Of a stretch of 22,194 bases of DNA, positions 10,918-22,194 are shown one piece after another. The notes under the pieces were generated by a model. That model ran no database searches. It saw only the letters and a program-made list of their open reading frames with translations, and was not told the origin of the DNA. How positions within the stretch are numbered: the first letter of the stretch is position 1; each line of letters starts with the position of its first letter. The position numbers and the translations under genes were made by a program. Origin of the DNA: a virus; IMG/VR virus record IMGVR_UViG_3300010153_000135, positions 1 through 22,194 of that record, one strand, 5' to 3'.

Positions 10918-11425
10918 AGCGTCTAAATAATATAAATTTCCTTTTCTCTATGCCGTACTTTTCAAACTCTTGCACAAGCTCAAAGCCTGTCCACTTAAGC
11001 CAGTTAAGGTGTACTGTGTTTCGTGCGTCAATAACATTATATAATAATCTATAATGGCTCTGTATTTCATCTACCCATTCCCGGCTGTGCCTGATGAAAG
11101 TTCTGGATTTGGTAAGGAGATCATCAGTTCCGACGAGCCAGACCACGCCTCTGTCGGGATGATCAGTTTTACATGCACCAAAGATTCCACAAGGTTTTCC
11201 TGTGCTGGTGAGTCGGATCGTGTAGCAAGGACATGAGGCATGGATGCCATCTCTAATGACTTGTAGATGAGGTTGCTCCGTGAGGGCATTGACTTCGTTT
11301 TTGTCAGCTTGCCGCAAGTGTCTTGCAACATGTAGTGCATCTGCTTTGGTACTATGTTCAACATATAAGCCTTTGTAGTCCCAGCGTCCTTTGGTTCTAA
11401 CCTGTCCATCTATTTCCTCTCGCAT
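10910..11425 (-). CDS. T7 gp13-like protein with acetyltransferase-type fold
   Basis: The C-terminal half resembles T7 gp13: VVWLVGTDDLLTKSRTFIRHSREW, then a helix, then LLYNVIDARNTVHLNWLKWTGFELVQEF, parallel to T7 WFVTSDQVW...LWNYVWVGNTSHIRFLKTIGAVFHEEY. These features fit the GNAT-like fold seen in this phage family (a beta strand, then an Asn before a helix, then a G-F strand). T7 gp13 is needed for virion morphogenesis; enzymatic activity is unproven. I chose the ATG at 11425 (171 aa) because AAGGGAG lies 5 bases upstream; an in-frame ATG at 11440 would add five residues but lacks such a site. The gene overlaps the end of tail tubular B by 29 bp and the gp14-like gene by 8 bp. It is longer than T7 gp13 (138 aa) through an N-terminal extension. 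Confidence 0.78.
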   Translation of the reverse strand: MREEIDGQVRTKGRWDYKGLYVEHSTKADALHVARHLRQADKNEVNALTEQPHLQVIRDGIHASCPCYTIRLTSTGKPCGIFGACKTDHPDRGVVWLVGTDDLLTKSRTFIRHSREWVDEIQSHYRLLYNVIDARNTVHLNWLKWTGFELVQEFEKYGIEKRKFILFRRYV

Positions 11426-14400
11426 AAGCTCTCCCTTCATAATCCAAACTCAAGAAGTCGGAAGGGTATGGTGTTGCGTTGGACACCTTCAAGGTAACCC
11501 TATCGTTTCTTCCCATGATTCCAAACGAATAGAAGCCTTCCGACAATGTGTTCGCTCCGACAATGCCCGAAGCAAACCCTAGCTCTGCCCCGGTGAACGC
11601 ATAGTTACTGTCCACTACGGTGTTCTCCGGTATGTGAGTGACGGTCACCTTAAACTGACGCGAGTTAGTGAACTCCAAGGTTCCTCTCGTCAGCTGCTGC
11701 CTGCCTCCCATCAGGGTTCCTCTTCCCCCTGTTCCTACGTTCTTCCGAAGGTGCGGCTTTGAGAAAGTATAATCCAAAGTGTATGGATCACCAATGTAAA
11801 ACGAGACACCCGTAAGATTAATAGGGAACTTGGCTACAGCACCAGATAAGTCGGAAGCTACTTCTGTCTTCCCGTCTGCTCTTACCACCTGAACCCTTGT
11901 TTTATCTTCAGGAACATAGGGTAAAGTGACTGTCGATTTACCTGAGCTTGAATCGTACAAAGGATCACCTAGGGTCACCCCGGTGGGGAGCACATGCGCT
12001 CCACCACTCCAGAGAACATCAACCCTACGATCCAGCAGGATTTCATAGTCCATGCCTATATCTTTCTGGCTGTCCTCGAACACTAATGACTCCAGACCGA
12101 CTACTGTGTCTCTCTTAATGACAAGATAAAGGATATTATGAATGAACTTACATGCCAATACCCTGTCCTTAGCTCCCCCAAAGACATACTTGAACCAAGC
12201 TGACTGTGTCTTTGAGCCATCTGAAGCTGTAAAATATTTATAAACATATAGAATTGCCTGCGTAGAATCATCTGTTAGGCAGACCAGCGTGTTCTCCTCT
12301 GGGCAGGAAGTGATCGAAAGGATATTTCCAGCTATATACTTAGGAATGTGAGCCGAGATGTCCTTCGACTCCATTGCATCCACCTGATCTCTCGACCTAA
12401 AGTATTCCGATACGGCTCCAAATTCAGAACGCTTGAAGGCAAAGAAAATATTATTACCAGCGTTTACGGGTTTAGCTGTAGCTGAGTTGGAGAAGTGGGA
12501 CGTAGCTGTAATCTGAACAGTCTTAGGGGAGATGTATGGGTCACCTGTGATGCTGAATTGAGCCTGCTCGCTGAAGACAATCAACTGATCAGCAAAGGGT
12601 ATGGCATGCTTCAGGTGTGAAACCATGTTGGTTGAGGCAGTCACATCAATGGGAGCCGTATCCAACAGGGCTGCTGTGGTGGTGCGGAAGAGATTGTAGT
12701 GCTCTCCTGCCTCACTAAGTATAACGCTCTCACCCGCAATCAATCCCAAACGATTTTTGTGTAAAAATATATCAGTTATCGTATTCCCAAGCATAGATGG
12801 GAAAGGATTAGTCCTGTTATCCCCTGCGTTTCGGGTGGCCCACGGGGAACGCTCCAGCCTGAAAAACTTTCCTTGTGGGTTAGCAGTTGTTTCGTGTGTA
12901 GGGCTGAAGTCCCTTACCAAGATAACTGGCATGGTGTTCCGGTTGAATCTGTGCTGTAGATCATAGCCGAGACTCTCAACCCAGCGTCCTTCTAGTAGAC
13001 GAGTAGGATCAGGATTGTCAGCCTCGAATCTAAGGTAGTAATCATCAGCCTCTTCTCGTGCGTCACCTACCACCCTAACAACGTGGCCGTGGCGACATTT
13101 CGCGGGGAGCTTAACTGACTCACTCACCTCGGTGAACGTGAGGCTCATCGCGTTTCCACCCATGTCATCAGATGTTACGATATCAAATGGCTTCCCTTCG
13201 GGATGGCGAATAGAAATGATATTACCGTCTTGGACAACAATCCAATCCGTTTTCGCATCGTCAACCCACGTTGTCTTTGATGCATCACTCAGCCTGCCAA
13301 GTACCTTGCCCCTATAGGACATGCCAAGGCATTCTTCCTCATGCTCCTGATTGTATCTGCCATCTGCAGTTACATTTCCATCCACCTTCAGAGGGGTTGG
13401 GAGTGGCGTAACGTCTCCAGTAGTTCCACCGTGATAAACCCCATCAATAATTTTTACATTGCCAGCAAGCATCTCAGCAATACGTTCTGTGCCTATTGCT
13501 CTTTGGGTTTTCTTCCTCCCTGTATCAGTTGTAAAATCAACCGTTCCTGCATTTCCCGTCCACTTAGGTGTCTTATAGAAAAACTCACCGTCATAAACTT
13601 GTCGGTTTCCGAGTGACGTAGTCTCTACTGTCCCAGAACCCAGCGTAGTTGACGCCTTCCCACGATGCATATACTCCTCCCTGATCGACAGACCAGAGAG
13701 GCCGGTGGTGAACATTGTTTTATATCTTAGGTAGTTCACCTCTGCGACTGACGCCCACATAGCGTCTACTCCTGTCGTAATAGATTTACCCCAATATTGG
13801 TGATCTTCCGTTTTATATTGGTGGTGTAACTCTGCTTTGTGGAAAATGAATGTGGCAGTAATTGCGGTGTTTGCGGTATCCGTCACCGCCGCCGTGTTCA
13901 CTCCTGTCTCACCAACCGCTAGGCCGTTCGCATCACACGCAACCATCTCCCAATCCTCCTGCATCGCAGCATTACTATTGAAAGCTGCTATGAGCTCTGC
14001 AACGGTGGTACTTCCTAAGAGTGATTCGGGGGAGATACTGCTAGTGTTTCCCCCTTTCTTGTGCCAATGGAAGTTGATGGCCATGTCAGCGGCCTCTTCG
14101 GTGGGGAAGATACTAGCCTTTGGGGTGAGAGTAGCGTCCCCATATTCGCTGGTATGCCTGTTCTCAAAGCACATCTCAAACGATGTCTTTTTGTTAGGCT
14201 TGTAGTAGTCGCCTTCTATACCAACATTAGGAGGAAAATCTGCGTAGTTGTTAGCGCCATCTGAAAGCACCCACTTTTGGGTGGATCGGTTTGACTCGGC
14301 ATAAACATAACTCCTGTCGATTCCCCAATTCTGTGTCAAACGAAACCGTTTACCATTGTACCCGTTACCATCGTGACGGGATCGAATCATGGCTATCTTT

Positions 14401-16184
14401 CGAGTGGGCTCGTTCTTTGTTGCTGCACCATAAAGCCAACAACGTGATGACTTAGCCACAATGCCTGCACTTGAGGTGGCAGTAACAGCTTCGTCTCCTA
14501 CCTTTACTTTGTATTGCTTACCATAGTCAGCCGAGTCAATCGAAATGAAAGCTTCGTGACTTTTATGGTACTTCATCGTAGGGTCTGATGCCACCCTGAT
14601 GGTGGTGTTCAGAAGGAACGTAGTGTCCCCTACAGTTGCTGCCTTTATGTCGGTTGCAGGATTATCGACATCCAGTAAATAGCTGGTTGCTCCCGGCTCT
14701 CCAATCTCCAGCGGGTACTTCGTGCCTGTCTTAACATCATGAACGTGTGGCCCTGATGCCTTGATACCACCTTCTGCTGAAAACGTAGTACCTTCATCAC
14801 CAACATAGGCCCAACCTGTTGTTCCTGTGTTCTGCCCTGTCATAGCAGAGCGGTAATCAGTAGGTAACGGACGCCGTTGGGTTGCGCTATTGCCGCTTGT
14901 GCTATAGAGGAGGCTACCCCAAAAATATAATTGAATAGTCTTAGCGGCGACATCATCGTAGGCATGCAGCGTTGGCGAGGAGGTAGTAATATTTACATCT
15001 TCTGCGAATTGAATGAAAGGGACACCATTATATGCCGTACCCTCGTGGGTTATGTTTCCTGTACCGTGATTCACCTTAATACCACGAGGATTCCTACGGC
15101 CTTTACCGATCCTCATCAGCTGGCCGTTCGCTATGTTAGCATAGTCAAGCGGGTTACTACCGTCAGCAGCTATTCGATAGAGTTTGTCATCGTTGGCAAC
15201 CCACTTGTCAGCACTCGTAACTGACCACCAACCAACCCTCTCTTCAGGAGGACGTACTCCTTCGGATGCCGGTGGAAGCTGATCACGATCCACAAAGAAG
15301 CCATAGTTCTCCGAGGGTACGCGGGATTTCTGGAGGTTTCTCACCCAGAATTTATTATTAACCTCGTTGCTGCTACCGGAAGAAGTTAAGGCTTCTCCCA
15401 TCATCTGCGTAATAGCACTACCATCCGTACCCTTTTGGGTCAGCCCGTATGTGACATCACTCTGCAGGATATATTTAGTTGTTCCTTCGAGACGATTAAT
15501 TTGGAAGTTGTCTCCCTCAACAAAGTTGTGACCAGAGCCAGACGTAGGGTCACTAAAGCGTACCGTCAGGACACCATCGATCCACTCCCCAGCATCGTTG
15601 CCAGAACCCGCAATCTTAACGGACTCGATTAGGATGCCTGCTTTATAGTTATACTCACCTAGTGCCGACTCCGTTAATTCCACTTGGCCTAGCTTAACTT
15701 TTGCTCCACCTTCAGTCTTGGAGACTTCAAACTTATACTGCGTCCCACTATTTAACGCATGGTTCTTGACGTAATATTCTTCTCCTTCCACTAAACCAAA
15801 CGGAAGTTGGGCAGTAGGGGAATTCCTGAAGAACTGTAGCTTGTTACCGTTTACAAATTGAGCCGCCGTTGCGTGAGAATAATAGAGGAAGTCATCAGCT
15901 GCGAAACCTACGCTAGTAATATCAACACGCACACCCTTATTAATAACAATAGCATACCGCTCTTCGGCATCTCGATTAATAAGATGAATGAAACTATTTG
16001 CTCCTGTCCCTGCGTTTACATCCAGAGTACCAATGTGCTTTGTGGGAGGCCGCTTGACTAAACCCTTAACGTGAGAAGAGTATGCATTGATCTGTTCAGC
16101 CGCTTGGGAGGGATGCCGTTGTGACTCCGCTTGTTGACTGACCCCTTGGGCTAGGCTAGAGACTGCATGCTTTACGTAAGGCAT
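11397..16184 (-). CDS. Tail tubular protein B, T7 gp12-like, with two large insertions (1595 aa)
   Basis: This is the nozzle protein of the short tail. Residues 1-92 match T7 gp12 clearly (SLAQGVSQQ, GLVKRPPTKHIGTL, FIHLINRDAEERYAIVINKGVRV). The match resumes at about 505-572 (TVGDTTFLLNTTIRVAS, YGKQYKVKVGDEAV) and again from about 980 to the end (VVRVVGD...DDYYLRFEAD, NPFPSMLGNTITDIFLHKNRLGL, DTAPIDVTAST, IPFADQLIVFSEQAQFSITG, AHIPKYIAGNILSI). T7 gp12 is 794 aa; the surplus is two insertions of roughly 400 residues each, at about 93-500 and 573-970. The first begins with a beta module (LPFGLVEGEEYYV...GGAKV) of a kind widespread in tail proteins. The ATG overlaps the stop of tail tubular A by one base (TAATG), so the two are translationally coupled. 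The boundaries of the insertions are read by eye. Confidence 0.93.
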   Translation of the reverse strand: MPYVKHAVSSLAQGVSQQAESQRHPSQAAEQINAYSSHVKGLVKRPPTKHIGTLDVNAGTGANSFIHLINRDAEERYAIVINKGVRVDITSVGFAADDFLYYSHATAAQFVNGNKLQFFRNSPTAQLPFGLVEGEEYYVKNHALNSGTQYKFEVSKTEGGAKVKLGQVELTESALGEYNYKAGILIESVKIAGSGNDAGEWIDGVLTVRFSDPTSGSGHNFVEGDNFQINRLEGTTKYILQSDVTYGLTQKGTDGSAITQMMGEALTSSGSSNEVNNKFWVRNLQKSRVPSENYGFFVDRDQLPPASEGVRPPEERVGWWSVTSADKWVANDDKLYRIAADGSNPLDYANIANGQLMRIGKGRRNPRGIKVNHGTGNITHEGTAYNGVPFIQFAEDVNITTSSPTLHAYDDVAAKTIQLYFWGSLLYSTSGNSATQRRPLPTDYRSAMTGQNTGTTGWAYVGDEGTTFSAEGGIKASGPHVHDVKTGTKYPLEIGEPGATSYLLDVDNPATDIKAATVGDTTFLLNTTIRVASDPTMKYHKSHEAFISIDSADYGKQYKVKVGDEAVTATSSAGIVAKSSRCWLYGAATKNEPTRKIAMIRSRHDGNGYNGKRFRLTQNWGIDRSYVYAESNRSTQKWVLSDGANNYADFPPNVGIEGDYYKPNKKTSFEMCFENRHTSEYGDATLTPKASIFPTEEAADMAINFHWHKKGGNTSSISPESLLGSTTVAELIAAFNSNAAMQEDWEMVACDANGLAVGETGVNTAAVTDTANTAITATFIFHKAELHHQYKTEDHQYWGKSITTGVDAMWASVAEVNYLRYKTMFTTGLSGLSIREEYMHRGKASTTLGSGTVETTSLGNRQVYDGEFFYKTPKWTGNAGTVDFTTDTGRKKTQRAIGTERIAEMLAGNVKIIDGVYHGGTTGDVTPLPTPLKVDGNVTADGRYNQEHEEECLGMSYRGKVLGRLSDASKTTWVDDAKTDWIVVQDGNIISIRHPEGKPFDIVTSDDMGGNAMSLTFTEVSESVKLPAKCRHGHVVRVVGDAREEADDYYLRFEADNPDPTRLLEGRWVESLGYDLQHRFNRNTMPVILVRDFSPTHETTANPQGKFFRLERSPWATRNAGDNRTNPFPSMLGNTITDIFLHKNRLGLIAGESVILSEAGEHYNLFRTTTAALLDTAPIDVTASTNMVSHLKHAIPFADQLIVFSEQAQFSITGDPYISPKTVQITATSHFSNSATAKPVNAGNNIFFAFKRSEFGAVSEYFRSRDQVDAMESKDISAHIPKYIAGNILSITSCPEENTLVCLTDDSTQAILYVYKYFTASDGSKTQSAWFKYVFGGAKDRVLACKFIHNILYLVIKRDTVVGLESLVFEDSQKDIGMDYEILLDRRVDVLWSGGAHVLPTGVTLGDPLYDSSSGKSTVTLPYVPEDKTRVQVVRADGKTEVASDLSGAVAKFPINLTGVSFYIGDPYTLDYTFSKPHLRKNVGTGGRGTLMGGRQQLTRGTLEFTNSRQFKVTVTHIPENTVVDSNYAFTGAELGFASGIVGANTLSEGFYSFGIMGRNDRVTLKVSNATPYPSDFLSLDYEGRAYARGNRWTG
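11431..11437 (-). promoter_or_regulatory. Ribosome binding site deciding the gp13-like start
   Basis: AAGGGAG on the coding strand lies 5 bases upstream of the ATG at 11425, inside the end of the tail tubular B gene. It favours the 11425 start over the upstream ATG at 11440, which has no comparable sequence before it. Confidence 0.6.
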
Positions 16185-17108: not shown

Positions 17109-18338
17109 TTACTGACCGGGTTGCTGTTCGTCAGACCACACAACAACAGACTCAGGGCGCAATGCACCGTGACCCATGCTGTACTTGGATACAAACAGGT
17201 TACCTTGACGATTGATCAGATACTCTGACTCAACTGTCAAGTCCATCAGCTTCAGGGTAGCAAAGCCGCCCTTCTGGAACACTATGCCTGCTACATCGCT
17301 GTAGTTTAAGGCGTAGTTATTGTAATCAGCCTGTGATGTCCACCTGTTCTCCTCGCCAGTACGTATACCGTCTGGCAGATGGTTACTCACCAAGATGTTG
17401 ATCCCGGCTACCTGACCCAGCGACCCTGACGAGACAGAGCCCACACCACCGACATCTCTGTTGATGATGGAGTTCACTACGTCAGTATTCTCAGAGTTGT
17501 TAATCAACTCGTAATACATCGCAGGGGTGACAATCGCATAGCGATCACTCGAAGGAACATCCTTCTCATCCAATATCCGTGCCGACTCAAAGAGAGCCTT
17601 GCGGAGGTAAGATGCCTTTGGATCAGCCTTGAGTTTACCTTTAGCAGACCCAGTAGCTGGCCCAGCGTACGCCGTGTTCACGGCATCATACGTGAGGTTA
17701 GCTAGGGTTTCCGCATCGGTTCCAACCGTTACACCAGCAGACTTCATTGAGTACACAACGGAACCCTTCTTCGTCTGCCCTTCAATCCAAGCAGGAGCAG
17801 GAATCAACCCTGTCGTATCACCTGTTGCCTTGTTCGTAGGTAGTTTAACACTCTGCTTTGCGCCAGTTTTCATGGCAACTTGCAGTACGTTCTTATCAAA
17901 CTGGTTAGCCAAGGCTTCACCAAGTTGATGAGTGTACGGAGCACGAACGTCGAAGTGACTCACCAATTCATCGACAGCTGCTATGAACGTAGAGCTCATG
18001 AGCACCTTATCAATGTGGATCATCGTTTCAGTCTGAGTCATCTTGTTCAGACCGCCGCCTTCACCAGTACCGTTACCAACTGTCGCAGTCAGAATGTCCT
18101 GACCGGGGCTGTAGTAACCAGCTTTGGCTGTCCCTATGATGGGGAACTGTGCTGATTTACCCTTCGTGATCGTTCGGATCGTATGAAGGGGTTTCATTAT
18201 ATTCTTCTCATCGAAGACCGTCATTACCTCACCGGCAAACTTCTTTAAGAAGAGAGCGGTTGAGTCGTTTGCACCTTGGTTTGCGCCTACGCGGCCAGCT
18301 GTTCCGCTGCCGAATAGATTATCTGCATATCCTGCCAT
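17109..18338 (-). CDS. Major capsid protein, T7 gp10A-like
   Basis: This 409-aa protein forms the icosahedral shell (HK97 fold). The N-terminal third matches T7 gp10: ALFLKKFAGEVMTVF, then IRTITKGKSAQFPIIGTAKAGYYSPG (T7: VRSISSGKSAQFPVLG), and VRAPYTHQLGEALANQFD (T7: VRSEYTSQLGESLAM). The C-terminal half contains the usual KALFESARILDEKDVP and RYAIVTPAMYYELI segments. The length is close to gp10A (345 aa) plus small insertions. It is the only gene with a long leader (105 bp, two hairpins) upstream and a strong terminator downstream, so its mRNA is probably made and kept at a high level. No sign of a gp10B-type frameshift extension was found; in-frame stops follow at once (TAA TAG). Confidence 0.96.
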   Translation of the reverse strand: MAGYADNLFGSGTAGRVGANQGANDSTALFLKKFAGEVMTVFDEKNIMKPLHTIRTITKGKSAQFPIIGTAKAGYYSPGQDILTATVGNGTGEGGGLNKMTQTETMIHIDKVLMSSTFIAAVDELVSHFDVRAPYTHQLGEALANQFDKNVLQVAMKTGAKQSVKLPTNKATGDTTGLIPAPAWIEGQTKKGSVVYSMKSAGVTVGTDAETLANLTYDAVNTAYAGPATGSAKGKLKADPKASYLRKALFESARILDEKDVPSSDRYAIVTPAMYYELINNSENTDVVNSIINRDVGGVGSVSSGSLGQVAGINILVSNHLPDGIRTGEENRWTSQADYNNYALNYSDVAGIVFQKGGFATLKLMDLTVESEYLINRQGNLFVSKYSMGHGALRPESVVVWSDEQQPGQ

Positions 18339-18443: not shown

Positions 18444-18710
18444 CTATTCGGCTTCCCCTTCGGGCAAATCTAACGGCCCCGCTAACCAACCTTCAGGTAG
18501 AGTGACTCTGTTTTTAGAGAGTTCCCACTCAGTACCATTCCAGTAGTACACACGGCCTGTGACCTTTGGCCCTAAACGAACCAACGTGTCACTTGTTGGA
18601 ATGAAGACTACTCTTTTCCCACTTGTCAAGCATCCGCTGCTTCCAAGCGTCACGCAACTTGCGAGGGACAGCAGGAGCAACCGTTGCTTTAACGGGTTTA
18701 GCAGCTTCAT
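18444..18710 (-). CDS. Small putative lipoprotein (88 aa), possible lysis or envelope protein
   Basis: The N-terminus is a lipoprotein-type signal: basic residues K2, K8 and R10, a Leu-rich core from residue 11, and two possible lipidated cysteines, C19 in LASC (good lipobox) and C27 in SSGC. The mature part is short and has a compact aromatic motif, RVYYWNGTEWELSKNRVTLPEGW, followed by an acidic C-terminus. I have a general sense that small phage and mobile-element lipoproteins with a YYWNG.W.LS....PEGW pattern exist, but I cannot give a firm family. It follows the holin-like gene by 23 bp and precedes the capsid leader. By position and topology it could be an outer-membrane spanin (Rz1-type) partner or an envelope-modifying lipoprotein; function is not established. 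The ATG at 18710 has only a weak GGA close upstream. Confidence 0.72.
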   Translation of the reverse strand: MKLLNPLKQRLLLLSLASCVTLGSSGCLTSGKRVVFIPTSDTLVRLGPKVTGRVYYWNGTEWELSKNRVTLPEGWLAGPLDLPEGEAE

Positions 18711-18733
18711 TCCATAGTAAACTTAGTATCTCT

Positions 18734-18997
18734 CTAAGAATTGCTATTAGTGCTGCTGCCATTAGCTGCGTCCAGTTTCTTGAGGGTCAATCGAGAGCCT
18801 GTGTAGCCAAGGGCAACAAGAGCAGCCATGATTAGGCCAACAACCTTAGTCAAACCATCGCTTTCATCCAGTATTCCAGAGGAAGCAACGGCTCCAAGGA
18901 CTACAGCAGCCATGCTCATGTAGAACTCGGTGGATTTATATCCCGGTTTCTTAACCGTTTCGTTCTCCACCGGCACACTCAATTTAGTCTTGGGCAT
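18734..18997 (-). CDS. Holin-like small membrane protein (87 aa, two transmembrane helices)
   Basis: Two hydrophobic helices are visible, about residues 25-43 (FYMSMAAVVLGAVASSGIL) and 49-66 (LTKVVGLIMAALVALGYTG), joined by a short acidic turn (DESDG). The N-terminus is charged and the C-terminus polar and Ser/Asn-rich. The pattern KSTEFY...GIL...GYTGSRLTLKK is typical of small phage holin-type proteins. Class II holins such as T7 gp17.5 (67 aa) have a similar size and two helices. A holin makes holes in the inner membrane at the end of infection. The start ATG at 18997 has a good AGGA site 6 bases upstream, and the gene begins 2 bp after the secreted-protein gene. A non-lytic membrane role remains possible because no endolysin is seen here. 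Confidence 0.68.
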   Translation of the reverse strand: MPKTKLSVPVENETVKKPGYKSTEFYMSMAAVVLGAVASSGILDESDGLTKVVGLIMAALVALGYTGSRLTLKKLDAANGSSTNSNS

Positions 18998-18999
18998 AT

Positions 19000-19326
19000 C
19001 TATTCCTGTTTGCTTCTGCTGATTTCACCAAGCTTAAGATGTACCTTGTTGGTCTTGGTTCCTAAGAAAAGTGAAGGAAACGGAAGTTCCAACGAGAGAT
19101 ATGGAATCTTTAACCTGACTCCATCCGACGAAACGCTGGCATCTGGGGTTACCCCTGCCTTAGCTCCCAAACAAAGAGAGGGAATTGGCCAAGAAATTTT
19201 TTGACCAAAAAGCGTTACGTTAGGGGAGGGCTTAAGGCTCGCTCCAAAGGCACTCGGTTTCTTACCGTTCGCACTTGCAGTCGTTGCGAACAACGCTACA
19301 CCAATGATTAGTATTAGTTTTTTCAT
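19000..19326 (-). CDS. Small secreted protein of unknown function with internal repeat (108 aa)
   Basis: Residues 1-19 form a clear Sec signal peptide (MKKLILIIGVALFATTASA) with cleavage expected before Asn20. The mature part of about 89 residues is basic and contains two similar segments: ISWPIPSLCLGAK at 44-56 and LELPFPSLFLGTK at 79-91, which share P.PSL.LG.K. The repeat suggests a small beta-rich domain with hydrophobic edges. I do not recognise the family. The ATG lies 1 bp after the scaffold stop, with GGAG about 12 bases upstream. With the holin-like and lipoprotein genes it makes a set of three envelope-directed products. A signal peptide is unexpected in a structural operon; a periplasmic role in lysis or in altering the host envelope is the simplest guess. 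Confidence 0.7.
   Translation of the reverse strand: MKKLILIIGVALFATTASANGKKPSAFGASLKPSPNVTLFGQKISWPIPSLCLGAKAGVTPDASVSSDGVRLKIPYLSLELPFPSLFLGTKTNKVHLKLGEISRSKQE
19004..19007 (-). promoter_or_regulatory. Ribosome binding site of the holin-like gene
   Basis: AGGA on the coding strand ends 6 bases before the ATG at 18997 and overlaps the last codons of the upstream gene. It is a clear Shine-Dalgarno sequence and supports the start. Confidence 0.6.
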
Positions 19327-19327
19327 A

Positions 19328-20071
19328 TTATATTACTTCTCCGCTCGTCATACTCAGTCGTTTCTCTACGTGAGCATGCCAATTTCTGTCGCCTGCTTTG
19401 TAGCGAGGGTCTTTCATATCCTGCTGCATCTCATAGGTAGACCCATAGCCTCCTACAGTAGGGGTCTTACCCCCTTGAACTAAAGTAGGTGTAGAAGATT
19501 CACCCGTAGCGGCTCGGTACTGAGACCATAACCCCTTAATAGCTAGGCTTGCGGCGTTGATATCCCCTGTGATGGCATCGTTGTAGGCATCAAGTTCAGA
19601 TGGGTCTACATTCTCAGAAGCCCACTCGGTCATGGCATCATAGTTATCGTCACCGCCTACAATATTAAGAAGCCCATTCTGGTGGGCCTCATTCAGGCTG
19701 TTCTGCCCTTGAATATAGCTGTCAACAAGGTCTCTAGAGATACCCTTCTTTTCTAGAGCTTCATACGTGGCATCTTGCAGTCCCCCCTGCTCATTATATT
19801 CATCGTTGTACTGATCAAACTCTTCAGAAGTTAAGAGCCCTTCAGCCTCTGCACGGCCAGAAGACATCTTCTTTTCCAGCTGATCATATGCAGAAGCTAG
19901 AGCTTCAGGTGAGTCAAACTTATCGTGTAACCACTCTGGTCGTTCGGCCCCCTCCTCTTGAGGTTCCTCTGTTTCCTCTATAGGCATTGGATTCTCTTCA
20001 GATTCCATTACCTCTAGAGACGGATCATCGGGTGGGGTCTCTTCCGCACCCATTGTTACTCGGTCTACCAT
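19328..20071 (-). CDS. Capsid assembly scaffolding protein, T7 gp9-like
   Basis: This 247-aa acidic protein has a Glu/Pro-rich, probably disordered N-terminus, then PEWLHDKFDSPEALASAYDQLEKKM (residues about 46-70), the segment typical of T7-like scaffolds, and a central VGGDDNYDAMTEWASENVD with downstream AYN.AI...IN.AS.AIKGL...Y. The C-terminus has the basic-aromatic end (EMQQDMKDPRYKAGD...V.KRL) that in such scaffolds contacts the capsid protein. It directs prohead assembly and leaves before DNA packaging. The start ATG at 20071 follows an A/T-rich leader (ATAAATAAAAATAAT) without a Shine-Dalgarno sequence; a second in-frame ATG lies six codons later at 20053. In T7 gene 9 is directly followed by gene 10; here three small genes come between. 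Confidence 0.93.
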   Translation of the reverse strand: MVDRVTMGAEETPPDDPSLEVMESEENPMPIEETEEPQEEGAERPEWLHDKFDSPEALASAYDQLEKKMSSGRAEAEGLLTSEEFDQYNDEYNEQGGLQDATYEALEKKGISRDLVDSYIQGQNSLNEAHQNGLLNIVGGDDNYDAMTEWASENVDPSELDAYNDAITGDINAASLAIKGLWSQYRAATGESSTPTLVQGGKTPTVGGYGSTYEMQQDMKDPRYKAGDRNWHAHVEKRLSMTSGEVI

Positions 20072-20085
20072 ATTATTTTTATTTA

Positions 20086-20994
20086 TTAATACTCTCTGCC
20101 CTTGGTGTCGTATCTCTTCTTCTTTCGTGCTCCTGTCTTCAGGTTAGATGAAATTGGTGCGCCGGGATGGGTGTCTTTTACCTTACCCACCTCACCAAGC
20201 TGCTTGGAGGGTGGTCTCCTCCTGTTCTTAGCTGTTCCTTGGCCAATGTTTAAGCGTTTACGATCAGCCTTGGTGTGGGCATCCGAAGCGGTCTTCTGCA
20301 TAGACTTAGGTTTCGACCTAGATATATTCTTCGCGCCTGTTTTTACAGACGATAGCGGCTTGCCTGCCTCATGTCCCCCTCTTCGTGCCTGATCTTTGGC
20401 ATATTTAACATCTGAAGTACCACGACCTACCCGTTTTTGCTGCCTCGTGCCAGACTTCACGATGTGATCCATAAGATTACGCTCGGCAGCTTTCTTACTT
20501 CTTTTCTTGAAGCCGCTTCCAGCCGCCTTCTTTGCAGCCTTTGTCAGGAGAGCTTTACCAGCGGCATAGCCTGCCTTCGCAGCGCCTCCAACAGGGACAA
20601 GATACCCTGCGATATCAAGGGCTTTGGCTGCTCGCTCCTTAAGGGTATGCTTTCTCACATTAGATGCTGCATGTTCACCCGCCTTCCGTGCTCCCTTCTG
20701 AGCCTCGATCAGCATGGTCTTTCGACGCAAGCGATCACGATTCTTTGTGGCAGTAGCAACAGCGGCCTTGGCCTTGTCCACTCTAGCCTTACTTTGACTA
20801 ACAGATGCTTTTGACGCTGCCTGCTTCCTTCTAAGACGCGCTTGTGTCTCGGCCTTGTTCGCAAGAGCTTGCTTAAGTGGGGTAATCTTAGCCTTCAGGA
20901 GGGAACCCTTTAGTTTCCCCTCCGTTTGTCTTAACTCCCGCTGGATTCTTGCGGTGTTCGCTTCCCGCTGTCTTTGTTGTTTCGATTTAGCCAT
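20086..20994 (-). CDS. Highly basic protein of unknown function between portal and scaffold (302 aa)
   Basis: The protein is extremely rich in Lys, Arg, Ala and Gln. Residues 1-100 look like a long charged helix or coiled coil (RQREANTARIQRELRQTEG; LRRKQAASKASVSQSKARVD). About 126-151 is the only hydrophobic part, Gly/Ala-rich (ALDIAGYLVPVGGAAKAGYA), and the remainder is basic and probably disordered, ending KKKRYDTKGREY. I do not recognise a family. The composition resembles histone-like or core proteins that bind DNA, and its place between portal and scaffold suggests it is packaged or involved in head assembly, but this is inference only. It begins 5 bp after the portal stop with no clear Shine-Dalgarno sequence and ends 14 bp before the scaffold ATG. 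T7 has no equivalent at this place. Confidence 0.75.
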   Translation of the reverse strand: MAKSKQQRQREANTARIQRELRQTEGKLKGSLLKAKITPLKQALANKAETQARLRRKQAASKASVSQSKARVDKAKAAVATATKNRDRLRRKTMLIEAQKGARKAGEHAASNVRKHTLKERAAKALDIAGYLVPVGGAAKAGYAAGKALLTKAAKKAAGSGFKKRSKKAAERNLMDHIVKSGTRQQKRVGRGTSDVKYAKDQARRGGHEAGKPLSSVKTGAKNISRSKPKSMQKTASDAHTKADRKRLNIGQGTAKNRRRPPSKQLGEVGKVKDTHPGAPISSNLKTGARKKKRYDTKGREY

Positions 20995-20999
20995 TATAA

Positions 21000-22194
21000 T
21001 TATTGTTGCATACCTTGTTGCATGGCTCCCGCCATCGCTTGAAGTTGTTCAGGGTTCTCGTTCGCCATCTTGCCAGCAGCCGAAGCACCAGCAGGGATAG
21101 CCTTATCCATCATCTGCATCTGTTGGGCCTGCTGCTGTTCCGCTTGGATTTCCTCCTCAGACCGGATGAGACCTTCAACGTCTATCCCTAGAGAGGTGGC
21201 CCTACGTTTGAGGTAGTCACTCATGTTAACGTAGGTAGCAAACTTATCTCCCAGCAGCTGTGAAGCTCCAGAGATAAAACTGTCTAGCTTATTAAGGTCA
21301 TGCCCCCTACCCAATGCCTCAAGCCCTGTTACAATCGTTGGCTTTATGATCTTCTTGGGTAACTTGGGTAAGCGGCCTGACTTACTCATACGATCCATCA
21401 GTCGGTTGACTAATGGAAGCTGAAATTCTTGTGAAAGGATACTATATACCCCGCCGAGGACATCTTCAAGTTCTTGTGCCATGAACCTGATCTCTTCAGC
21501 AGTCACTCGCTCACCCTGTCTTTGGATGGCGGTGTTCATCAGGAAAGCAAACCCTAGTCGTTCTTTGATCTGGGTTATAGTTTCTTGAGCCACTCTGAAG
21601 TCGGCAAATTTTTCCATCTGCAAGACCGTGACATCTTGTGCGTTCCCTTGAACAATACTGCCGTTAGGAGCAGTAGCCAAAGTGCGTGGGCGTGTGGTTC
21701 CATTTGGATTTACTAAGAATATTACCTTTGCTGCTGCTGTTGCTCCCTCAACGATTGCTTGTGTCAACCCTTCGAGAGATTGTAGATCACCAAAATATTC
21801 CTCAATGAATCCTCTTCCGTAGTCCTCACCCTCGATGCGGGTGTACCTAAGAGGAACCCAAGGACTCTTGTCTAAGGGATAGGAGCCACGAGCGGAGGGG
21901 ATATCCATATCGGCAACCTCCTGTCGCACCATCCACTTATTCTCGTGACGATATATTCCAGTATAAACATCGACACTCCTTTGGCCGTGCGCCATTCCAC
22001 CTTCAGTCTCATGCCCTGCCTCCTGTATAAAGTTACGGATATCTTCAGGTAAGACATCAGGATCAACACTTTCTTTAACAATAATAGACTGCACGTTCCC
22101 CATTGGGTCACGCTTACAGACATACCTATCTAGATTAAAAATTCTAATGCCTCCCTTGTCAGGTACATACAAGAGAACATTGCCTGCTACTACC
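21000..22194 (-). CDS. Portal (head-tail connector) protein, T7 gp8-like, partial (N-terminus outside window)
   Basis: The frame is open to the window edge, giving 397 visible residues; T7 gp8 has 536, so about 140 N-terminal residues are missing. The first visible residues, VVAGNVLLYVPDKGG, correspond to the VTGN.LLYLP segment of T7-like portals, followed by FNLDRYVCKRDPMGNV. Further on, a conserved core reads VPLRYTRIEGEDYGRGFIEEYFGDLQSLEGL, then the LGFAFLMNTAIQRQGERVTAEEIRFMAQELEDVLGGVYSILSQEFQLPLV region typical of the family. The C-terminus is Gln/Met-rich (EIQAEQQQAQQMQMMDKA). The dodecamer forms the packaging channel and the tail attachment site. The TTG at 22172 is an ordinary internal Leu codon, not a start. 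It is the first gene of the visible virion operon. Confidence 0.95.
   Translation of the reverse strand, partial: VVAGNVLLYVPDKGGIRIFNLDRYVCKRDPMGNVQSIIVKESVDPDVLPEDIRNFIQEAGHETEGGMAHGQRSVDVYTGIYRHENKWMVRQEVADMDIPSARGSYPLDKSPWVPLRYTRIEGEDYGRGFIEEYFGDLQSLEGLTQAIVEGATAAAKVIFLVNPNGTTRPRTLATAPNGSIVQGNAQDVTVLQMEKFADFRVAQETITQIKERLGFAFLMNTAIQRQGERVTAEEIRFMAQELEDVLGGVYSILSQEFQLPLVNRLMDRMSKSGRLPKLPKKIIKPTIVTGLEALGRGHDLNKLDSFISGASQLLGDKFATYVNMSDYLKRRATSLGIDVEGLIRSEEEIQAEQQQAQQMQMMDKAIPAGASAAGKMANENPEQLQAMAGAMQQGMQQ

Follow-up and report, generated by a model that had tools for sequence, protein, structure and literature searches.

The portal-scaffold locus

We analyzed a stretch of 22,194 bases (hereafter, the window) from a T7-like phage that is known from metagenomes only and whose record covers part of a genome. 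The head-assembly genes lie on the minus strand in the order portal, basic gene, scaffold and capsid protein. The start codon of the basic gene is 5 bases after the portal stop and its stop codon is 14 bases before the scaffold start. The features on which the analysis is based are as follows, with the family of relatives of the basic protein designated family A:

21000 to 22193, minus strand: portal protein, 3' part (PF12236, 2e-63), with its 5' end beyond the window
20086 to 20994, minus strand: family A basic protein, 302 aa, net charge +61, pI 11.4
20602 to 20982, minus strand: continuous N-terminal helix predicted by AlphaFold2, aa 5-131
20671 to 20754, minus strand: motif common to family A, aa 81-108 (like RRKxxLxxxxxGxRKxGK)
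20545 to 20601, minus strand: Gly/Ala-rich, mildly hydrophobic segment, aa 132-150 (mean Kyte-Doolittle 0.96)
20089 to 20379, minus strand: basic C-terminal region, aa 206-302, much of it with low pLDDT
19328 to 20071, minus strand: scaffold (capsid assembly) protein, 247 aa, net charge -35 (PF05396, 2e-16)
17109 to 18338, minus strand: major capsid protein, 409 aa (PF21703), which served as a control

The charge, pI and position of the ORF bear out an earlier, sequence-only reading of this DNA, which had noted a very basic protein of 302 aa between the portal and scaffold genes. That reading had also described a composition dominated by Lys, Arg, Ala and Gln. Lys and Arg together contribute 27.2% of the residues (82) and Ala 15.9% (48), as described, whereas Gln is a weak part of the description at 5.3% (16 residues), below the 7.6% of the portal. 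Cys and Trp are absent from the protein and Phe occurs once. We rejected an overlapping-frame artefact as the source of the ORF, based on the several stops in the plus-strand reading of 20086-20994, the family A matches at the locus and the dN/dS values reported below.

Using 14 sequences as input, AlphaFold2 modeled a helix at aa 5-131, with block means of 92-97 pLDDT within residues 41-100, and two more helices at aa 139-159 and 162-205. The pLDDT dropped below 50 at residues 132-142, 159-162, 207-231 and 256-289 and, because the pTM was 0.30, only the local structure of the model is readable. The long N-terminal helix and disordered C-terminus anticipated from the letters alone thus stand as predictions of the model. 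Approximately the first 80 aa of the window protein have no counterpart in the other aligned family A members, in which the shared motif sits at or near the N-terminus rather than at aa 81-108. The Gly/Ala-rich segment is the best 19-residue stretch of the protein (residues 132-150, 53% Gly plus Ala). It had been described as a Gly/Ala-rich hydrophobic stretch; the richness is as described but the hydrophobicity is mild, the usual transmembrane cut-off being a mean Kyte-Doolittle value of about 1.6.

Three other ORFs in the window match internal virion protein families (phrog_308, phrog_805 and phrog_6651) and seem to fill the T7-type core role that had been considered for the basic protein. 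None of the window ORFs scanned, in a record that is part of a genome, matched a protease in PHROG or Pfam. Between the scaffold and capsid genes are three small ORFs (18444-19326, minus strand) with no PHROG or Pfam match. By eye, one has a signal-peptide-like start, another a lipoprotein-like start and one a hydrophobic stretch, and they are perhaps lysis genes. The window also encodes a relative of tail tubular protein B of 1,595 aa (11397-16184, minus strand). Its best PHROG match spans residues 878-1592, which leaves much of the N-terminal half as a possible addition.

Relatives of the basic protein

Direct searches with the window basic protein returned no Pfam match up to E 0.1, no PHROG match, and no tblastn match in 50,697 phage records, where a longer family A relative likewise found none. 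A peptide-pattern search of the viral contigs (viral_contigs) with the window protein gave no match, and a profile search returned a single contig (L088), though further family A loci are known. Pattern searches of this kind are therefore insensitive and a miss means little. The family A profile had no match among PDB sequences up to E 1, and Foldseek returned 0 matches to viral models at E <= 0.001. The model of the L088 allele was of low confidence (mean pLDDT 60, pTM 0.21). We found no recognizable histone-like or HU-type DNA-binding domain in the basic protein (Pfam to E 0.1; PDB profile to E 1), and no anti-defence family was recognized in the family libraries searched (Pfam and PHROG). 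Further, the lack of an enzyme family match in Pfam and PHROG, together with a model consisting of predicted helices and a low-confidence tail, fits the earlier suggestion that the protein is not an enzyme. Weak Pfam and PHROG matches of relatives (for example, TPD52 at 0.001 for L008) were set aside as probable coiled-coil noise, the Pfam ones falling under the curated cut-off.

Family A relatives surfaced only via their neighbors, once the viral contigs were searched with the portal, capsid and scaffold proteins. A hidden Markov model built from the window protein and eleven ORFs of the portal-scaffold interval then found further family A ORFs. When this type of scan was applied to 129 loci and the window, which are stretches and not whole genomes, the family A matches were confined to the portal-scaffold interval or to contig ends.

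The portal-scaffold interval as a cassette site

We compared the interval in 40 rows (the window and 39 contigs, near-copies included), all with a portal identity of at least 74% and with the portal end and scaffold start present. The locus set comprised the best 80 of 121 loci, with 55 further loci (many on the same contigs) outside the counts, and repeat loci on one contig were dropped (21 ids in the interval analysis and 22 in the scaffold-charge table). Three contigs stop short of the scaffold (L009, L019 and L043), the first with a partial family A match. Also outside the 40 rows are two contigs (L106 and L110) that match family A in part but lack a portal.

The distance between portal and scaffold varied from 1 to 1,383 bp in these rows. 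Family A was present in 14 of them (window included) and absent from 26, and a second family of basic proteins, B, was present in 15. A search for basic proteins at the same locus in related phages, as the sequence-only reading had proposed, thus found them in 18 of the 40 rows (family A and/or B), leaving 22 with neither. Considering ORFs of at least 70 aa in 26 non-redundant contigs (one per near-identical group), all of the interval ORFs (22/22) had a net charge per residue of 0.15 or more, as did 21 of the 273 other ORFs on the same strand. By eye, the latter 21 are one conserved gene of 70-77 aa that directly precedes the portal (21 of the 26 contigs; for example, L011:5375-5596). Its product starts with MC and is rich in Lys and Pro, and the gene sits roughly at what we take to be the place of T7 gene 7.3. 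Five interval ORFs under the length filter (40-67 aa; in L013, L037, L038, L039 and L101) are not strongly basic. Short Cys-rich ORFs of 40-41 aa with WPWYR near the end are found in the interval of three contigs (L013:7182-7307, L037:5878-6003 and L101:5445-5567).

Family A proteins have a short basic motif followed by a Gly/Ala-rich segment (10 of the 14 aligned sequences, window included) and, mostly, by a variable basic tail. Four of the 14 are short members with a Kyte-Doolittle value of about 0, and two contigs (L023 and L027) carry the short family A type alone, without the Gly/Ala segment. Family B proteins are small (72-101 aa) and basic, mostly with a Lys/Tyr-rich tail at the end. 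A third type, C, matches phrog_7595 (1.9e-20 for L024) and, weakly and below the cut-off, DUF5754, both of which are of unknown function. It is a basic protein of 95 aa (L023:5823-6110 and L024:6249-6536), and tblastn places relatives of it in 43 phage records, including those of Roseobacter, Synechococcus and Prochlorococcus phages; two papers that mention DUF5754 deal with viruses of algae and protists. The combination of these genes differs among three contigs whose portals are 98-100% identical: C, B and A2 in L023; C, B, A1 and A2 in L024; and B, A1 and A2 in L025.

Whole-gene exchange, gain and loss

The basic gene is swapped as a whole between close relatives. Contig L088 encodes a capsid protein 100% identical to that of the window and carries, in place of the window gene, an allele of 206 aa with an identity of 31% (tblastn) to 42% (multiple alignment). 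Upstream, the two agree without a mismatch across 118 bases that comprise the end of the portal gene and its stop codon, the latter being the breakpoint. Downstream, only 3 mismatches occur in 3,825 bases, starting from this feature of the basic gene:

20089 to 20115, minus strand: last nine codons (RYDTKGREY), the downstream breakpoint of the swap with L088

The gene is also repeatedly gained or lost at this position. Family A presence requires 6 changes on each of two trees, one of portal and capsid proteins (41 rows) and one of scaffolds (40 rows), and in both at least 5 of the changes are forced by supported branches. Because close relatives lack it, the basic gene is probably not essential. 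The dN/dS ratio was 0.27-0.73 in five pairs of family A relatives (the window's own allele not among them), which supports the translation of family A. The ratios in the measured pairs were 0.16-0.29 for the scaffold and 0.04-0.05 for the portal.

For the earlier statement that the gene has no T7 counterpart at this place, nine relatives were examined at the portal. Nothing is annotated between portal and scaffold in five of them (S45-C18, BB8, CRP-403, KM23-C739 and Bylgja), two (LUZ100 and P-SCSP2) have only short, weakly charged ORFs, and the Rhizobium phages TRX32-1 (169 aa, net +23) and RHEph01 (166 aa, net +19) encode a basic protein there. The Rhizobium-phage protein, a relative of which was seen in RHEph21 as a tblastn hit only, is unrelated to family A as judged from the lack of tblastn matches between the two groups. 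The portal gene of TRX32-1 is annotated as two ORFs (L004:5608-7273). We also noted a portal relative (55%) in a Parvibaculum MAG (L173), followed by an ORF of 96 aa that is not strongly basic by eye; its location in a bacterial genome does not fix the host of the window phage. Among the matches listed, the available excerpts of the open-licence literature on T7-like and Autographiviridae loci, virion proteomes and head or cargo proteins do not describe the cassette, which is not proof that it is unpublished. The name RHEph01 did not appear in the excerpts among the matches listed, and those on Cobavirus report no virion mass spectrometry.

Scaffold charge and the presence of family A

Scaffold acidity and family A presence are statistically linked. 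Complete scaffolds had a net charge of -26 to -35 in rows with family A (13) and of -16 to -29 in rows without it (25). We tested the link post hoc, after noticing the trend, and with few independent changes, using independent contrasts of scaffold charge on family A presence. On the portal and capsid tree, r was -0.59 with 38 tips (p 9e-5) and -0.74 with 27 tips (p 1e-5); the scaffold tree gave -0.55 (p 3e-4) and -0.75 (p 6e-6). The portal and capsid contrasts excluded L036 (truncated scaffold) and the outgroup (L045 and L048), the 27-tip set also excluded L010 and ten near-identical rows, and L088 was included in the scaffold tree only. Contrasts of scaffold charge against total cassette charge gave r -0.40 and -0.68. 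An independent-pairs test, whose cut-off of -26 was set once the data were known, yielded about 4 pairs as expected, 0 against and 1 tied, and was not significant (median p 0.125). Acidic scaffolds also occur elsewhere: the nearest relative without the cassette (L010) has a charge of -28 in a truncated scaffold, a contig with family B only (L089) has -29, and outside the clade the scaffold charge goes down to -41 in a contig whose interval is empty (L007).

Split by segment, the correlation was r -0.69 (p 8e-5) for scaffold aa 83-247 and weaker for aa 1-82 (r -0.39, p 0.04). The latter adjoin the cassette, and their weaker signal speaks against mere hitchhiking. We thus rejected the idea that simple co-transfer of the scaffold with the cassette fully explains the charge link, based on this difference and on the 6 family A changes on the scaffold tree, yet partial co-transfer may contribute. 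The largest charge difference between rows with and without family A maps to a short region:

19673 to 19705, minus strand: scaffold aa 123-133

Within it, an acidic residue occupies position 128 in 10 of 13 rows with family A versus 3 of 25 without (E in the window), and position 130 in 10 of 13 versus 2 of 25 (H in the window, not acidic). Position 124 shows the reverse, being acidic in 0 of 13 rows with family A versus 17 of 25 without (N in the window). Given these opposite trends, acidic residues are shifted locally as much as they are gained.

As for the controls, capsid charge was not significantly related to family A presence (r -0.05 with 26 tips and -0.11 with 19 tips). Portal charge tracked it with the opposite sign, the portal being less negative when family A is present (r +0.39, p 0.02, 36 tips; r +0.48, p 0.015, 25 tips), and the portal control is therefore not clean. 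Its correlation with total cassette charge (+0.19 to +0.35) was not significant. The portal trend could reflect a second partner or linked genes that drift in charge with the cassette.

Candidate roles of the basic protein

The reading that we favor, at a rough probability of 0.45 and by analogy with the internal proteins of T4, is an exchangeable cassette for basic head cargo that is co-assembled into the procapsid through the acidic scaffold. The window gene would be one allele of this cassette, which would supply strongly basic cargo proteins. During procapsid assembly, the basic protein would bind the acidic scaffold by charge and be drawn inside alongside it. Once the scaffold exits, the basic protein would remain in the head on the packaged DNA, and would later enter the host cell with the ejected DNA and act there. 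Binding to the scaffold, a place in the virion, association with DNA and ejection are all inferences, as is the role of the protein, for which protecting the incoming genome against host defences seems the likeliest candidate. The earlier proposal of a packaged head protein is thus partly supported, by the location in the head-assembly module and the covariation of scaffold acidity with gene presence, with the reservation about the portal control.

T4 and P1 are the best-known sources of counter-defence proteins that are packaged and ejected. A broader and more tentative proposal, which we regard as doubtful in its full form, is that this uncultured T7-like clade maintains a dedicated, swappable slot for head cargo, with the scaffold as a charge-based loading receptor that co-evolves with fast-changing, ejected anti-defence effectors. 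If true, scaffold-loaded cargo would be more general and would reach small T7-like phages, the locus would point to where counter-defence genes may sit in uncharacterized phages, and the scaffold region would be offered as a candidate docking surface.

An unlikely alternative is a structural role in DNA condensation, in which many packaged copies would neutralize the charge of the DNA and aid its dense packing, and the protein would have no role after ejection. The net charge of +61 and the basic, low-confidence tail are in line with such a protein, and excerpts on the T4 internal proteins describe binding to DNA in low salt (PMC9026906) and lysines that contact DNA phosphates (PMC3012670). 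However, families A and B are both missing from the interval in 22 of the 40 close rows; packaging is independent of such a gene there, and the basic protein is thus no general need of packaging. Fast exchange would also be unexpected for a plain structural role. Hence, of the DNA-condensing or nucleoid-like function suggested by the sequence-only reading, the purely structural version is the part that becomes less likely.

Less probable again is a helper of assembly that would bind scaffold or portal while the head forms, leave with the scaffold and be absent from the mature virion. This would be consistent with the location in the assembly module, with the charges of both scaffold and portal tracking gene presence and, from an excerpt on T4, with the slower head assembly of IPIII mutants (PMC9026906). 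Frequent absence and the replacement of the entire gene beside a nearly unchanged scaffold would, however, be odd for an assembly factor. We give still less weight to an accessory gene whose product would work in the infected cell and outside the head, for example as an inhibitor of host nucleic-acid enzymes, and whose place in the late module would be incidental. Patchy presence, swapping and the relaxed selection on family A relative to the portal agree with it, but not the confinement of family A matches to the interval or contig ends (among stretches, not whole genomes) or the relationship between family A presence and scaffold charge. Finally, a part of the ejection machinery, in which the Gly/Ala-rich helix inserts into the host membrane and aids DNA entry, is very improbable despite the recurrence of the segment in 10 of 14 sequences, as its hydrophobicity is low (0.96 in the window protein, which weakens the membrane-inserting helix proposed earlier, a somewhat higher 1.04-1.38 in nine longer relatives and about 0 in the four short members) and internal virion protein families are matched by other window ORFs.

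Comparison with known systems

T7-like phages carry internal core and ejection proteins in their heads. The basic protein differs from them in that none of the internal virion family matches falls on its ORF. Cargo proteins stored in the capsid of a short-tailed phage are described for crAss001 in the parts of the source available (PMC10172136), but they are much larger than the window protein. Excerpts on phage P1 describe DarA and Hdf as head proteins with a positively charged, DNA-facing side that are tied to assembly and to defence against restriction, in a phage with no separate scaffold protein (PMC12810830). The window protein differs from the P1 Dar proteins in having no family match (Pfam and PHROG, family libraries only).

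The excerpts available on T4 describe its internal proteins as basic, present at about 300 copies each per head and co-purifying with the core protein gp22, and as dispensable and not highly conserved, with IPI blocking a host nuclease (PMC9026906, PMC3012670). The window protein, at net +61 and pI 11.4, is strongly basic like IPI, IPII and IPIII. It is also variable between close relatives, as seen in the absence of family A from 26 of 40 rows and the L088 swap, and its dispensability would follow from such absences. The T4 proteins associate with the scaffolding core, whereas for family A the corresponding evidence is indirect, in the form of scaffold charge covariation with a portal control that is not clean. 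The T4 proteins have an N-terminal capsid targeting sequence that the prohead protease cleaves; family A has a shared motif, at aa 81-108 in the window protein. The two groups differ in sequence, as the searches found no homology between them, the window protein having no Pfam or PHROG match and its family A relatives no match to an internal-protein family. They also differ in setting, the window being from a T7-like phage with a different scaffold, in which the basic protein is a candidate cargo. Thus, if the cargo reading is right, the basic protein would resemble the T4 internal proteins in anatomy and behavior, not in descent.
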